The notes under the pieces were generated by a model. That model saw nothing but the letters and a program-made list of their open reading frames with translations. It searched no databases and was not told where the DNA came from. Shown here piece by piece: positions 12,504-32,184 of a stretch of 61,365 nucleotides of DNA (its first letter is position 1; each line of letters opens with the position of its first letter). Source of the DNA: Candidatus Eiseniibacteriota bacterium (GTDB lineage: Bacteria; Eisenbacteria; RBG-16-71-46; JACRLI01); NCBI GenBank assembly GCA_025351485.1, contig JANXVU010000033.1:1-61365 (forward strand), in the 5' to 3' direction. The position numbers and the translations under genes are program-made.

Positions 12504-12525
12504 AGAGGGCCGCGAAAAAGTTTTC
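12504..12525. repeat. Left arm of split long hairpin element (copy A)
   Basis: These 22 bases (AGAGGGCC ... AGTTTTC) are a perfect inverted repeat of 15058-15079, on the far side of the FG-GAP-like gene. They begin 25 bases after the clpB stop. With 15018-15079 they would rebuild a continuous 25-bp-stem hairpin, so they look like one arm of an interrupted element. Confidence 0.75.
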
Positions 12526-15017
12526 GGAGGCAACGGCACCTTCATCCGGCCGGGAGGTCAATTATAGAATTACCGGGCGGCCCCGGGCAAGAGGAGTTGT
12601 GGGCCACGATGCCGGCGGGACGCCGAGGGCCATGGACATCCCGGTACCCGGGCAGGCGTGCGCCAGCTTGGACCCATTCGATGTGCCGGGCCTATCTCAT
12701 CCACACCAGGCGCTGCGTGAGCGGCGCGGCTCCCGTCGTCAGGAGCCGTACGAAGTAGATTCCGCCCGGTACCGTTGCTCCCCGATCATTTCGGCCATCC
12801 CAGCTTGCCTGGGCCTCGCCGGAGGACTGGGCGCCCTGGACCAGGCGCCGCACCAGCCCGCCCTGCATGCTGAAGACCGAGAGCTCCGCCGGCCCGGAGT
12901 GGGCCAGGCTGTAACGCACGACGCTGCTGCCCTGGGCCGGGTTGGGCGCCGCGCGCCCCAGCCACAGGCCGGCGGCCCCACCTGGCGAAACCCCGCCGAC
13001 CTGCTGCGGCGTCAGCAAGTTGAATCCGCTCTCGTTGCCGTGGACGTCCACCGCCGAGAGCCGGTAGAAGTGCCCACCTAGTGTAGCGTCGGCGTAGGAC
13101 GTGTCCGGCAAGGACACAATCAGGTTCGTAGGGCCCGGAACGAAATTGGCTGACGTGCCCCGGTAGAGATTGTAATGGCCCAGATCGGGCTCTACGTTGG
13201 CCTTCCAATGAAGCGTCGTAACGGCGCCGGAATAGTTGCCCAGGAACGGCGAGGGCTTGGCGGGCGGAATGTTGTCCACCGAGTACGCGCTGTCTGAATC
13301 CGAGGGCCAGCGCGCGCCGGTCGAGAGCTGCTTCGCCTCCACCATGAAAATCGTGTAGGGATTGGATCCCGGGACGGAGTCCGCGCTGGTCGGCGCGCTG
13401 TAGCTGTAAGCGGCGTATCCGTCCGCCGGCTGGCTTCCAACGTATTCCCAGTAGTAAGTCTGCCCGCCCTGGGTGGAGGCGCGGAACACGCGACCGGTGC
13501 GCGCTCCCCGGGTGGCCCCCTCGGTCGTCCGGCTCGCGCCCTGGGCCAATGCTGCCAGCGCCAGGGAATTTGGGGCCTGCCGCCAGATCCAGTAGGCGTC
13601 CACCGGGTTCCCGGGCTGAATGTCGACCGGGCTGGCGCTCCAGCGGAGACTTACCTTGCCGCCCTGGTCGTTGGGGATGTCCTTGATGGATGAGATCTTC
13701 GGGGATGCTTCGACAAAGACCCACGCGGCGCCTGCCGCGCTGTTGTCACTATCCCCGCCCACGACGGCGGTGCTGCCATCGGAGGACAATGCAACCGAGG
13801 ATCCCTGTGCCGAGTTGCCTGTCGCGCCCGTTCCAACCAGTTTGTTCCCGCGCTGACTCCACACCCCGGCACTGCGGGTGAACTCCCACACGGCGCCTAC
13901 CCCACTGTTGTCGAGTGTCCCGCCAACCACCGCGCTGTTGCCATCCCCGGACAGGGAAACAGAGAATCCCTGTTGCGCATTGCCGTAGATGCCCCCGACC
14001 GTGCCCGTCCCGACCAGCTTGGCCCCCTGTTGGGTCCAAACGCCACCGCTGCGCGTATACACCCACACGGCGCCCGTCCAATTGTTGTCTTTAGACCCGC
14101 CCACCAAGGCCGTGTTGCCATCCGCGGACAGCGCAACCGAGCTTCCCTGCTGCGCGGTGCCTGTCGCGCCGGTTCCCGCCAGCTTGGCCCCCTGCTGGCT
14201 CCAAACGTTGGCGCTGCGTGTGTAGACCCACACGGCGCCGGCACTTCCATTGTCCGCCGTCCCCCCCACGAGGGCGGTATTCCCGTCCGCGGAAATCGCA
14301 ACGGAATGGGCCTGCTGCGCGCTGCCGATCGCCCCGGTGCCGACCAGTTTCGTGCCCGTCTGGCTCCAAATATTGCCGCTGACGGGACTATAGGTCCGCG
14401 TGAAGATCCACGCGGCGCCCGTGCCCGAATTGTCGTTGGGCCCGCCCACGATGACGGTGTTCCCGTCCGCGGCCGAAGCCACCGAGTAGCCCTGGTTCGA
14501 CTGGAATCCTCCCGTGCCGACCAGCTTGGCGCCATCCTGGGTCCAGACGCCCGCGTTGCGCGTGAACATCCAGACGGCGCCCGCGGATGCATTGTCAAAC
14601 CGCGCCCCCACGACGGCGGAGTTCCCGTCAGCGGAAAGTGCAACGGAAATCCCCTGCTGCCCGACTCCTGCCGCCCCGGTGCCAACCAGCTTGCCGCCCT
14701 GCTGGTTCCATAGGCTGCCGCTGCGCGTGTACACCCACACGGCGCCTGCGGATGCATTGTCATTCGGAGCCCCTACGACGACCGTGTTCCCGTCAGAGGA
14801 AATAGCAACATCACTCCCCTGACCCCCGGCGCCACTTGCTCCTGTGCCCACCAGCTTCGCCCCCTGCTGGAAGTTGGGCGCCGGGCTGGCGCAGGCTTGG
14901 AATGCGTACGAAAGAAGAGCGGCGGCGATCACGAACGGCTTGGCGGACATCGGGAGAGATCCTTTCGGTGAAAGCAATGGGTTCCGCTACACAAAGTTGT
15001 GGACAGTCTCGCTTTTC
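12526..15017. other. Putative inserted cassette carrying one secreted-protein gene
   Basis: This 2,492-base segment separates the left arm of hairpin copy A from its loop and right arm. The five bases TTTTC occur just before it (12521-12525) and as its last five bases (15013-15017), like a target-site duplication or microhomology. It holds the FG-GAP-like gene, 166 bases of non-coding DNA at one end and 67 at the other. No transposase, integrase or terminal inverted repeats of its own are seen. The direction of the event is an inference. Confidence 0.5.
12692..14950 (-). CDS. Secreted seven-repeat FG-GAP-like beta-propeller protein with FlgD-like tail
   Basis: A 752-residue exported protein of unknown partner. 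ATG 14950 is preferred over an upstream TTG at 14977: AAGGAT lies upstream and a signal peptide follows (MSAKPFVIAAALLSYAFQACA). Seven repeats of about 54-60 residues follow. The unit is KLVGTGA-x-G-x-x-QQG-x-SVALSADGNTALVGG-x-x-DN-x-x-x-GAVWVYTRS. That number is enough for one closed seven-bladed propeller. A fibronectin-III-like segment and then a FlgD/Por-tail-like domain (AAPNPAQGSS ... ELSVFSMQGGLVRRL ... VPGGIYFVRLL) complete it. It is probably displayed on the cell surface and binds a ligand. It sits alone between the two parts of a split hairpin. Confidence 0.8.
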   Translation of the reverse strand: MSAKPFVIAAALLSYAFQACASPAPNFQQGAKLVGTGASGAGGQGSDVAISSDGNTVVVGAPNDNASAGAVWVYTRSGSLWNQQGGKLVGTGAAGVGQQGISVALSADGNSAVVGARFDNASAGAVWMFTRNAGVWTQDGAKLVGTGGFQSNQGYSVASAADGNTVIVGGPNDNSGTGAAWIFTRTYSPVSGNIWSQTGTKLVGTGAIGSAQQAHSVAISADGNTALVGGTADNGSAGAVWVYTRSANVWSQQGAKLAGTGATGTAQQGSSVALSADGNTALVGGSKDNNWTGAVWVYTRSGGVWTQQGAKLVGTGTVGGIYGNAQQGFSVSLSGDGNSAVVGGTLDNSGVGAVWEFTRSAGVWSQRGNKLVGTGATGNSAQGSSVALSSDGSTAVVGGDSDNSAAGAAWVFVEASPKISSIKDIPNDQGGKVSLRWSASPVDIQPGNPVDAYWIWRQAPNSLALAALAQGASRTTEGATRGARTGRVFRASTQGGQTYYWEYVGSQPADGYAAYSYSAPTSADSVPGSNPYTIFMVEAKQLSTGARWPSDSDSAYSVDNIPPAKPSPFLGNYSGAVTTLHWKANVEPDLGHYNLYRGTSANFVPGPTNLIVSLPDTSYADATLGGHFYRLSAVDVHGNESGFNLLTPQQVGGVSPGGAAGLWLGRAAPNPAQGSSVVRYSLAHSGPAELSVFSMQGGLVRRLVQGAQSSGEAQASWDGRNDRGATVPGGIYFVRLLTTGAAPLTQRLVWMR

Positions 15018-15079
15018 CCCTGGGCTCAGGGCTCGTTTCGCTCGCATTCGCCCCGGGGAAAACTTTTTCGCGGCCCTCT
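15013..15079. repeat. Loop and right arm of hairpin element copy A
   Basis: TTTTCCCC (15013-15020) pairs locally with GGGGAAAA (15055-15062). Between them lies GGGCTCAGGGCTCG (15022-15035), seven variable bases, and CGCATTCGCCCC (15043-15054), shared with copy B at 23014-23046. The right arm continues to 15079 and is the exact inverse of 12504-12525. It ends eight bases from the stop codon of the GGDEF gene, so it may also act as that gene's terminator. Confidence 0.75.
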
Positions 15080-22979: not shown

Positions 22980-22988
22980 ATCAAGACG

Positions 22989-23070
22989 CACAAAGAGGCC
23001 GTTGACTCCCCCCGGGCTCAGGGCTCGCGTTGATCGCATTCGCCCCGCGGGAGTCAACGGCCTCTTTGTG
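22989..23070. repeat. Intact long hairpin element (copy B) after aspS
   Basis: Two perfect 22-bp arms (22989-23010 and 23049-23070; CACAAAGAGGCC ... and its inverse) enclose a 38-base apical region. Its 33-base core, 23014-23046, is GGGCTCAGGGCTCG, seven variable bases, then CGCATTCGCCCC, as in copy A. The stem sequence is different from copy A. It lies ten bases after the aspS stop. The GGCCTCTTTGTG end could serve as a terminator, but such a large loop is unusual for one. Confidence 0.85.
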
Positions 23071-23111
23071 CTCTGCTCTGCAAAGCGTGGAGCTGCGAAC
23101 GGAGCCGCGCC

Positions 23112-29160: not shown

Positions 29161-29625
29161 ATGTTCTATCACTTCAATCCCGAAATCACGGTGCGGCTGC
29201 TCGTCTCCACGTTCCTGGGCCTGGTCATCGGCTGGGAACGCGAATCCGCCGGAAAGCCGGCGGGCCTACGGACCCACGCGCTGGTTTCCCTGGGCTCGTG
29301 CATGTTCATGCTCCTGGCGACCGAAGGGCCCAAGGTGTGGGGCCTGACCATGAACGTGGATCCCACGCGCCTGGCACAGGGCCTGGCGACCGGGGTCGGA
29401 TTCCTGGGAGCCGGCGCCATCATCCAGTCGGGGTTTTCGGTGCACGGGCTCACCACGGCGGCCACGATCTGGCTGGTGTGCGCCGGAGGCGCCGCGGTCG
29501 GGGGGGGGCTGTGGGAGATCGGACTCGAGGGAACGGTGATCGCGCTCGTGGTTTTGCGGGGGCTCGCGTTCCTGGATCGTCTCTCGGTCAGGAGCCGGGG
29601 AGGCCGTGACCCGGAAGGCCGCTAG
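29161..29625 (+). CDS. MgtC/SapB-family membrane protein
   Basis: A 154-residue membrane protein of the MgtC/SapB family, linked in other bacteria to Mg2+ limitation and acid stress. Family hallmarks: RLLVSTFLGLVIGWERE, the G-K-PAGLRTHALVSLGS segment, GVGFLGAGAIIQ, and GLTTAATIWLVCA. Four to five hydrophobic helices. A run of nine G (29500-29508) encodes Gly residues near 114-116; the conserved frame continues through it. TTGACG at 29123-29128 is a possible -35. It is convergent with the MerR gene and overlaps it by four bases. Confidence 0.9.
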   Translation: MFYHFNPEITVRLLVSTFLGLVIGWERESAGKPAGLRTHALVSLGSCMFMLLATEGPKVWGLTMNVDPTRLAQGLATGVGFLGAGAIIQSGFSVHGLTTAATIWLVCAGGAAVGGGLWEIGLEGTVIALVVLRGLAFLDRLSVRSRGGRDPEGR

Positions 29626-30551
29626 GCGGTGGCTCCCAGCGCTTCGTGGAGGCGCTTGAGATCCTGGAATACTCCTGTTCCCGGCACGGTCAGCGGGGCG
29701 CCGCTCCCGCCGAGAAACAGCCGGACATCCTCCGGCAGTAGCTTTCGCAGCTCCCTCACCGCCCGTTCCGCTCCCCGGGGCTCCACCACCGAAGAGACGC
29801 TGATCCCCACCGCCGAAAGCCTTACATCCTTCAGCATCGCCTCGAGTTCTCCCGCGGGAGTTTCCACGCCCAGGTGATAGACCCGCCACCCCCGCATGGA
29901 AAAGGCGAGCGCCGCCATGAGCAGGCCCACCTCGTGCTGGTCGCCCGGCAGGGTGGTCAGGGCGATCTCCGGCCCGGACGCCACCGCATCGAAAGGCGCG
30001 CGCACTTCCCGCAGGAAATCGCCCAGTTGGGCCGTAGCGAAATGCTCGTGGCGAATCTCCAGCCGCCCATCGGCCCAGGCGAATCCCACCTCGGTCATCA
30101 GCGGTGCGGCCACGTTTTCCAGGAACCCCAGCGGCCCGTGCTGGGACCAGCGGCTCCGGAACGCACTCCGAAGCGTGAAGGAGTCGATCCGACGCACCGC
30201 GTCCATCAATCCTTCGATGTCGCTCGCGGGCCCGACACGCGCATAGGGCGCCTGGAACGGCGATGGCGCGCGGGAAAGCATGGATTCCAGCGTGGGAAGG
30301 GAAAGCCGCACCACCTCGGCCACGCGATGGCCGCCGGCAATGGCCTGGGCGACTCGTTGAAGGTGCCGCACGGCGGAAAGCGGGTACAGGCGATGGCCCG
30401 AAGGTTTGCGGATGGGAACGGGGAAGTGGTAGCGGCGCTCCCACGTGCGCAGGGTTTCCACCGGGATGCCGGTCGCCCTGGAAAGCGCTCCGATGGAAAG
30501 CCGCGCCTCCGGAAGCAGCGACCTGGCGGCTCCCGGATTGGCTTCGCTCAT
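29622..30551 (-). CDS. MerR-type regulator with cobalamin-binding domain (CarH/LitR-like photoreceptor)
   Basis: A 309-residue transcription factor. The N-terminal MerR helix-turn-helix is LSIGALSRATGIPVETLRTWERRY then GHRLYPLSAV. A helical bundle follows with WADGRLEIRHEHFATAQL, the W ... EH pattern that caps adenosylcobalamin in CarH. The Rossmann domain has TTLPGDQHEVGLLM, in which D204-x-H206-x-x-G209 supplies the lower cobalt ligand His206, then a GVETPAGEL loop. CarH proteins repress promoters in the dark and are released by light cleaving the Co-C bond. Its ATG overlaps the cbiX stop (ATGA), so they are one operon. Light sensing is inferred from the intact motifs. Confidence 0.85.
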   Translation of the reverse strand: MSEANPGAARSLLPEARLSIGALSRATGIPVETLRTWERRYHFPVPIRKPSGHRLYPLSAVRHLQRVAQAIAGGHRVAEVVRLSLPTLESMLSRAPSPFQAPYARVGPASDIEGLMDAVRRIDSFTLRSAFRSRWSQHGPLGFLENVAAPLMTEVGFAWADGRLEIRHEHFATAQLGDFLREVRAPFDAVASGPEIALTTLPGDQHEVGLLMAALAFSMRGWRVYHLGVETPAGELEAMLKDVRLSAVGISVSSVVEPRGAERAVRELRKLLPEDVRLFLGGSGAPLTVPGTGVFQDLKRLHEALGATA

Positions 30552-30991
30552 CTTGGATTCAATCGGTGGAGGACTGCGCTGGCCATGCCTTCCATGACTT
30601 CGGGGGCCTCGCCAAGCGCCCCGCCCAGCAGTTCGATCGAGAGTTCGGGGAAGAGTTTGCGGGCTTCCTCGATCAGGGCCGGCACGTCGCGCCGCATGTG
30701 GGGGCCGCCCGAGGACATGAACACCGGGGCGATCGCGATGCTGGAGGAGCCCGTGCGGGCCAGTACGGCGATGGCTTCGCGAAGGGACGGCGAACCGCCC
30801 TCCATGAACGCGATCTCGAACGCGCGCAACGGCTCCGCGCAGCAAAGCCGTTCGCGCAGGCGCCGGATCGGAATGCTCCAGGCCGGGTCGGAGCTGCCAT
30901 GACCCAAGAGGATGGTGGCCGGCGAAAGGCTCAGCCGGACACCGTTGCAGTTGCCGGTTGGAAGTGCGTCCAGGGTTCTGGCGGCTGTCAT
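30548..30991 (-). CDS. Short CbiX/SirB-type sirohydrochlorin chelatase
   Basis: A 147-residue metal chelatase of the small single-domain CbiX class, predicted to insert Co2+ (or Fe2+) into sirohydrochlorin. Visible: ATILLGHGSSDPAW with the conserved metal-ligand His, FMEGGSPSLREAI, and APVFMSSGGPHMRRDVP with the second His. ATG 30991 has GAGAGGA seven bases upstream. An open frame continues 69 codons further upstream, but it runs through the tandem 75-base repeats and is not considered coding. No other cobalamin-biosynthesis gene is in the window. The next gene in the operon binds cobalamin, which favours a cobalt role. Confidence 0.85.
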   Translation of the reverse strand: MTAARTLDALPTGNCNGVRLSLSPATILLGHGSSDPAWSIPIRRLRERLCCAEPLRAFEIAFMEGGSPSLREAIAVLARTGSSSIAIAPVFMSSGGPHMRRDVPALIEEARKLFPELSIELLGGALGEAPEVMEGMASAVLHRLNPR

Positions 30992-31293
30992 GGTCCAATC
31001 CTCTCGGAAGTCAGGATCCGGCGCGGTCGCTCGATTCCCCAGGCCGCTGGAGTTTCTTGCGATCCGCGCCGGCTCACTTCGAAGTTTAGGATCCGGCGCG
31101 GCCGCTTGATTCCCCAGGCCGCTGGAGTTTCTCGTGGTCCGCACCGGTTCAGTCAGTTCTGATGCACAGATTGTGAATAGGATTTGAAGAAGTTTCAAGA
31201 AGAATGAAAGAAGACCCGGCTGGATTCGAACCGAAGTTTCAACCTGCTTATTGGCTTTAGGTTAGAGGTTTGTGTCGAGCGGAAATTCGATGC
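30992..31293. other. Intergenic region upstream of cbiX
   Basis: These 302 bases hold the tandem leader repeats (31013-31151). An AT-richer stretch follows (31155-31210, with TGAATAGGATTTGAAGAAG). A fragment resembling a tRNA T-arm (GGTTCGAATCC on the minus strand, 31222-31232) has no cloverleaf. No gene is seen. Confidence 0.5.
31013..31151 (-). promoter_or_regulatory. Tandem 75-base structured leader upstream of cbiX
   Basis: Two direct repeats, 31013-31076 and 31088-31151 (period 75), lie in the leader of the cbiX operon. They differ at seven of 64 positions, all transitions. Read on the minus strand each can fold into an outer stem (CCGGYGCGG / CCGCGCCGG plus about four pairs), an A-rich internal loop, and an inner hairpin CTCCAG-CGGC-CTGGGG that is invariant. 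One outer pair changes U-A to C-G between copies and another C-G to U-G. The end of the second unit (GGATCCT, 31013-31019) is complementary to the cbiX Shine-Dalgarno region (AGGATT, 30997-31002). It does not match the cobalamin riboswitch consensus. Confidence 0.5.
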
Positions 31294-32184
31294 TCAGGCG
31301 AGCACCGAGCGCAGGGCGCCGCCAAGGTCCGGATGAAGGAAGGGGTAACTCCGCTCCAGCAGCGCCCCCGGAGCGACACGCGTGCTGCCGAACAGCAGGG
31401 CGTCCGCGAACTCGCGCCCCATGAGGAGCCGCGCCGCAAAACGGGGGACCGGGGGACCGACCCAGCGTCCCACCGCGTTCGCCAGCTCGCACGTGAATTC
31501 GGTGTTGGTGACCGGGCCCGGAGCCACCAGGTTGACCGGGCCCCGGTAGGACGGATCCTCGATGGCCCGCAACACCACGCCCACCAGGTCATCCCGGGTC
31601 ACCCAGCTCATCCACTGCTTTCCGTCGCCAAGCCGGCCTCCCAGTCCCATCCGGAACAGCGGAAGCAGCGGGCTGAGCAGCCCGCCCTGCCTGGCCAGCA
31701 CGAGCCCGATCCGCAGGCGCACCACCCGGATCCCGGCATCTTCCGCGGCCTTCGTGGATGTCTCCCACTTCACGCACACTTCGCTCATGAAACCGCGGCC
31801 CGGCTCGCTGCGTTCGTAGAGGATCTCGTCGCCACGGTCGCCGTAGTATCCGATGGCGGAAGCGCACACCATCACCGCGGGTTTTCGGGCCGCGGCGGCG
31901 AGCCGCTCGGAAAGAAAGGTGGTCCCTCTCACCCGGCTCTCCAGGATCCGGCGCTTGAGCCCGGCGGTCCAGCGGCCGTCGGCAATGCCCTCGCCCGCGA
32001 AGTGCACCACCGCCTCCAGGCCTTCCAGGGAGGCGGTGTCCACCGTGCCGGCGTAAGGATCCCATGCGATCGCGTCGGGGCCGGCCGTGCGGCTTAGACC
32101 CATGGCCCGTTTGCCCGCAGCGCGCAGGGAAGCGATCACCGCAGAGCCGAGGAGCCCGCGCGGGCCGCTGACCAGGACGCTCAA
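31294..32184 (-). CDS. TIGR01777-family NAD(P)-dependent epimerase-like protein
   Basis: A 296-residue short-chain-dehydrogenase-fold protein (YfcH/SulA-like) of uncertain substrate. The N-terminal nucleotide-binding loop is LVSGPRGLLGSAV. VHFAGEGIADGRW and SAIGYYGDRGDE with the conserved Tyr follow. The C-terminal DUF1731 domain runs from NLVAPGPVTNTEFTCELA to ERSYPFLHPDLGGALRSVL. TTG start 32184 overlaps the stop of the O-antigen-ligase-like gene (TTGA), showing translational coupling. Length is typical for the family. Confidence 0.88.
   Translation of the reverse strand: MSVLVSGPRGLLGSAVIASLRAAGKRAMGLSRTAGPDAIAWDPYAGTVDTASLEGLEAVVHFAGEGIADGRWTAGLKRRILESRVRGTTFLSERLAAAARKPAVMVCASAIGYYGDRGDEILYERSEPGRGFMSEVCVKWETSTKAAEDAGIRVVRLRIGLVLARQGGLLSPLLPLFRMGLGGRLGDGKQWMSWVTRDDLVGVVLRAIEDPSYRGPVNLVAPGPVTNTEFTCELANAVGRWVGPPVPRFAARLLMGREFADALLFGSTRVAPGALLERSYPFLHPDLGGALRSVLA

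Follow-up and report, generated by a model that had tools for sequence, protein, structure and literature searches.

A candidate operator of the CarH type, overlapping a promoter-like sequence, precedes a cbiX-carH gene pair in the window (the whole stretch of 61,365 nucleotides analysed here), and immediately downstream of it the leader of this operon carries two tandem hairpin units. As an assignment made from sequence, the operator appears to be a clearer and better-supported result than a reading of the units as an RNA sensor, which we regard as unlikely. For the units themselves we favour a lineage-specific leader occluding the Shine-Dalgarno sequence and/or protecting the mRNA: tentatively, they may represent a stable hairpin that was duplicated in tandem within the 5' leader of an operon that is regulated by light/AdoCbl and represses itself, where it would damp translation and/or protect the 5' end.

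The cbiX-carH operon and its candidate operator

The cbiX-like gene (30548..30991, minus strand) encodes 147 amino acids, matches the Pfam CbiX family (5.6e-16) and contains GHGS and GGPHMRRDVP, which we take to be both catalytic-type His motifs of CbiX. Its stop codon (30550-30548) overlaps the ATG of carH (30551-30549) as ATGA, and most likely the two genes form a translationally coupled, CarH-autoregulated operon with the hairpin units in its 5' UTR. The product of carH (29622..30551, minus strand) was assigned to the MerR-B12 photoreceptor class from Pfam and NCBIfam matches together with its motifs; the best NCBIfam match is CarH, at a score of 116, which lies below the cut-off of 400. 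Class I LitR proteins, to which CarH belongs, are characterized by RxWERRY, Wx9EH and DxHx2Gx41Sx(T/V)x22-27GG (PMC9304148). The protein encoded here resembles them in carrying RTWERRY at position 35, WADGRLEIRHEH (Wx9EH) at 159 and DQHEVG-x41-SVS...GG at 204, the third residue of the SxT/V element being S. Relatives of this regulator were found in 14 other genomes by genome search, so that the scans of the genome-contig and viral-contig collections, which returned none, reflect an effect of the method. Inspection by eye placed a photolyase-like frame at about 26.7-28.0 kb of the window, and similar frames beside the regulator in some relatives (L037, L042); photolyases are typical company of CarH/LitR (PMC9758184).

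Directly upstream of the first hairpin unit, at 31159..31202 on the minus strand, lie 11-bp direct repeats, CTTCTTGAAAC (degenerate), TTCTTCAAATC, CTATTCACAAT and CTGTGCATCAG (degenerate), which overlap a sigma-70-like promoter, TTGAAA-17-CACAAT (31170..31198, minus strand), recognized from consensus with 9/12 matches. Published CarH operators consist of 11-bp repeats in tandem, of the form nnnnTnnACAn, which overlap the -35 or -10 element (PMC9304148), and the arrangement here is like that of autoregulated CarH and class I LitR promoters in the overlap of the direct repeats with a promoter-like site and in the photolyase-like frame nearby. It differs from them in two respects: the box reads TnTTCA/TnTGCA here instead of the published TnnACA in each repeat, and carH stands behind a cbiX-like gene and a structured leader of 160 nt. 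The published LitR box T(G/A)TACA is absent from the leader. As the TnTTCA box also adjoins carH in relatives, we infer that it is a clade variant of the CarH box. A pattern of two TnTTCA boxes with TATTCA in the first repeat had no match in the genome; since the window's own site has TATTCA in the second repeat, this result carries no information on further sites.

Similar 11-bp repeats are present upstream of carH in four relatives, and a matrix was built from these regions with the window left out. The best tandem in the 61-kb window was the 31159-31202 site, at 25.9-28.6 bits compared with 11.4-13.1 for the next unrelated site, a match that is not fully blind as the operator register was picked after the window had been inspected. 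When the intergenic part was shuffled 2000 times, no shuffle scored as high as this site. Matches near carH were also obtained in relatives outside the training set (L033, 20.8; L034, 19.0; L040, 24.9 and 22.1), the best of 52 control loci scoring 21.2 and the second-best 15.2; single matrix scores near 20 are not decisive. Another relative (L035) has the operator about 50 nt ahead of carH and contains neither cbiX nor hairpin units there, and for this reason cbiX together with its leader appears to be a lineage-specific arrangement. The variant box with its 11-bp repeats would provide a testable regulon marker for the lineage, more secure than the proposed control at the RNA level.

CarH-like 11-bp arrays also occur before DUF4397-type lipoprotein-like genes beside carH in two of the relatives (L034 at 2582-2626; L040 at 1536-1557 and 1712-1733; genes read by eye), suggesting that such genes may be CarH targets in this lineage. 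On the minus strand, two copies of TTGAAACTTC lie 44 bp apart, at 31189-31198 and 31233-31242, one of them at the putative -35 element; there is no further occurrence in the window even at one mismatch. A tRNA remnant considered at GGTTCGAATCC (about 31232) was discarded, since ARAGORN finds no tRNA there.

Structure of the tandem units and their predicted contact with the Shine-Dalgarno region

The tandem pair follows an epimerase-like gene, whose stop is at 31294, and precedes the cbiX-like gene, whose ATG is at 30991; both genes and the pair share the minus strand. Unit 1, the promoter-proximal copy, lies at 31086..31151 and unit 2, the gene-proximal copy, at 31011..31076, both delimited by repeat search, folding and alignment. 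The earlier note had assigned the units to the leader of a cbiX/B12-photoreceptor operon, a placement borne out by the operator- and promoter-like site directly upstream and by the ATGA overlap of the two genes; it had likewise described two units spaced by 75 bases and folding alike on the minus strand, with which the repeat search and the folding z-scores agree. The direct repeat 31004-31076 / 31079-31151 is 85% identical over 73 nt at a spacing of 75, and TRF reports a period of 75 with a score of 229. The 66-nt unit bodies differ in eight columns, seven in the hairpin and one in the tail, all of them transitions and none an indel, against the seven transitions counted originally; the full 75-nt period contains 12 differences, of which two are transversions in the spacer.

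Each unit is predicted to fold as a single long interrupted hairpin with 23 possible pairs. Between the copies 20 of the 23 are invariant, the others comprising one U-A/C-G double change, one C-G/U-G change and one A-C mismatch, in agreement with the compensation pattern first noted. Folding energies are -38.8 and -33.6 kcal/mol, which corresponds to z -3.9 and -3.4 relative to dinucleotide-shuffled sequences, and the whole leader reaches z -5.4; as raw values these energies are ordinary, since about 3% of 66-nt stretches in the GC-rich window reach -33 kcal/mol, and the plus strand of the units folds with nearly the same energy as the minus strand. The inner hairpin CTCCAG-CGGC-CTGGGG, followed by AATC, is identical in both units as had been claimed, but the length of the run is unremarkable: 15% of random placements would leave 25 or more consecutive columns unchanged (P 0.15), which is not significant.

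When one copy was given random transitions, 2.5% to 26% of the trials, according to direction, kept the pairing as well as the other copy does, and 0.4% to 13% reached an energy as low; in the unit 1 to unit 2 direction the folding energy was kept better than chance (P 0.004). Retention of structure between the two copies is thus weak under the transition model (P 0.004-0.26 by direction and measure), and the structural argument is a weak one because it draws on just two sequences. The pair is a true duplication of a true palindrome, and selection on its RNA structure is suggested. An open frame running through the repeats from a TTG at 31198 was rejected as coding, as 8/9 codon differences are non-synonymous.

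The region GAGAGGATTGGACC (30992..31005, minus strand) contains the Shine-Dalgarno sequence of cbiX. It had been proposed that the 3' end of the second unit pairs with this region; a pairing is indeed predicted, but it involves the tail of the first unit, whose AUCCU (31092-31088 on the minus strand) would act as an anti-Shine-Dalgarno by pairing with AGGAU. The partition function gives pair probabilities of 0.61-0.79 for this contact, which in the predicted fold completes a stem enclosing unit 2. The mean unpaired probability of GAGAGGATT is 0.14, compared with 0.39 ± 0.14 with shuffled upstream sequence, a marginal difference (P 0.04) that depends on the assumed transcription start, and removing either unit in silico raises the accessibility of the Shine-Dalgarno sequence from 0.14 to 0.23-0.32. 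The modelled fold gives weak support to the view that the leader reduces translation of cbiX, and with it of the coupled carH, or that it protects the transcript.

We suggest the following scenario. In the dark, AdoCbl-CarH would occupy the promoter-overlapping 11-bp repeats; in the light, CarH would be released and transcription would begin about 10 nt ahead of unit 1, as inferred from the promoter-like sequence. If the TTGAAA-17-CACAAT promoter is the one used, both units lie in the 5' UTR. In the transcript, unit 1 would pair through its tail, across unit 2, with the Shine-Dalgarno sequence of cbiX, and the leader may thereby lower translation of both coupled genes and/or shield the 5' end. 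If the leader does act on the RNA, this would be a B12 photoreceptor operon under double control, by light at the promoter and by RNA structure at the ribosome.

Distribution of the units and alternative explanations

The comparison set comprised 46 other genomes of the class, which were also all those from the phylum, none of them belonging to the same family. In the genome itself, which is 98.6% complete, the units occur at one locus in exactly two copies, and no third was recovered by BLAST or by a covariance model derived from the pair. No convincing homologue was found by either method in the 46 other genomes; the leader as a BLAST query against 59 genomes returned short GC-rich fragments only; the units were not found in Rfam, phages, plasmids or viral contigs; and the core pattern GAAACTCCAG-N4-CTGGGGAATC had no match in the genome-contig or viral-contig collections. 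The best outside match of the covariance model (G039, E 0.0022) falls within a metallopeptidase-like reading frame, lacks the inner hairpin and was rejected. The expectation that conserved single or tandem units would recur at cbiX-merR operons found no support in this survey, which recovered no homologous leader in any relative examined; conservation thus lends no support to a function, and the almost equal folding of the plus strand also counts against the favoured reading.

The same distribution bears on whether the units are the two remaining copies of a palindromic element of REP-like or mobile type. Their shape and their absence from relatives would be typical of mobile elements, and like REP/BIME repeats they are imperfect, GC-rich intergenic palindromes in tandem; unlike REP/BIME, which have many dispersed intergenic copies, they are present in exactly two copies at one locus. 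The earlier note had named a scattering of the 75-base unit over unrelated sites as the observation that would make it a REP-like repeat, and the search for it recovered one locus. With a single occurrence in a 98.6%-complete genome and none in 46 relatives, the units are not a scattered REP-like repeat, nor do phages, plasmids or viral contigs contain a copy, and a REP-like or mobile origin, largely refuted, is very improbable. More room is left for a neutral event in which a stable palindrome of the leader was duplicated in tandem and took on no regulatory role of its own, an explanation that we consider possible although doubtful: the units are confined to this genome among those searched, the length of the invariant core is not notable (P 0.15), pair retention is weak, and another palindromic repeat family exists in the same genome. 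It sits less well with the lack of any indel over 66 columns, with hairpin changes that are all transitions, with the double change that preserves one pair, and with the retention of energy from unit 1 to unit 2 (P 0.004). Highly improbable is a DNA-level element whose repeats are bound as duplex by CarH or another dimeric protein. The units are palindromic on both strands with near-equal folding energies, and CarH operators are themselves repeated sites; however, the units are devoid of TnTTCA/TnnACA tandem boxes, the operator-like repeats are separate and upstream, and the known CarH repeat period is 11 bp (PMC9304148), not 75 bp.

A tandem, cooperative metabolite riboswitch gating translation in response to cobalamin, sirohydrochlorin, cobalt or nickel had been envisaged, and here the evidence is largely unfavourable. 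Two like units with internal loops do adjoin a Shine-Dalgarno sequence predicted to be sequestered, and there is precedent for tandem bulged stem-loops in the NAD+-I riboswitch, whose ribosome site lies in the 3' domain (PMC7297122). The leader is like this nadA motif in that a pair of similar bulged stem-loops stands in tandem in a 5' UTR, the ribosome site lying near the second, and unlike it in lacking the ACANCCCC bulge and any Rfam match, in its different downstream genes and in having no homologues. With the glycine-type cooperative riboswitches it shares two like units in series, and again differs from them in having no Rfam match. Neither strand of the leader matches an Rfam riboswitch at gathering score or at E up to 10, the four sub-threshold rows belonging to unrelated families far below their gathering scores, and the 46 class genomes supply no homologue that would give covariation.

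The candidate signals are doubtful as well. Of genes with a tetrapyrrole-methylase fold, the genome yielded one, which is RsmI-like (read by eye), and a search of the genome for methylases of corrin or siroheme synthesis found none; apparently neither sirohydrochlorin nor the corrin ring is made, which makes sirohydrochlorin an unlikely signal, and the presence of a cbiX-like gene where no corrin pathway is visible hints that the chelatase fold has another use. B12 and light sensing is already covered by CarH and by a canonical cobalamin riboswitch elsewhere, the only genome match to RF00174 (C140:469-652) being on another contig before a TonB-receptor-like gene. Given this and the weak retention of structure between the copies, the riboswitch reading is improbable, and we think it equally unlikely that the hairpins are an orphan tandem RNA sensor, in which light/AdoCbl would act via CarH at the promoter and a second signal via the units at the ribosome site. 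The leader that occludes the Shine-Dalgarno sequence and/or protects the mRNA stays the reading that we favour.

Other repeats in the window and the genome

A dispersed palindromic element with the core GGCTCAGGGCTCG..TCGCATTCGCCC and differing outer arms occurs in the window at 15017-15058 and 22988-23071 and on two further contigs (C67:23436-23466 and C81:1-31); its core has four exact copies in the genome and none in 45 relatives, and at 22988-23071 the arms are 30 nt long and 93% complementary. The 22-nt sequence AGAGGGCCGCGAAAAAGTTTTC forms a perfect inverted repeat at 12504-12525 and 15058-15079, 2.5 kb apart, the second copy adjoining the palindromic element at 15017. At 13758-14870 lie tandem repeats with a unit of about 165 nt and 62-76% similarity, which probably code for a repeat protein.
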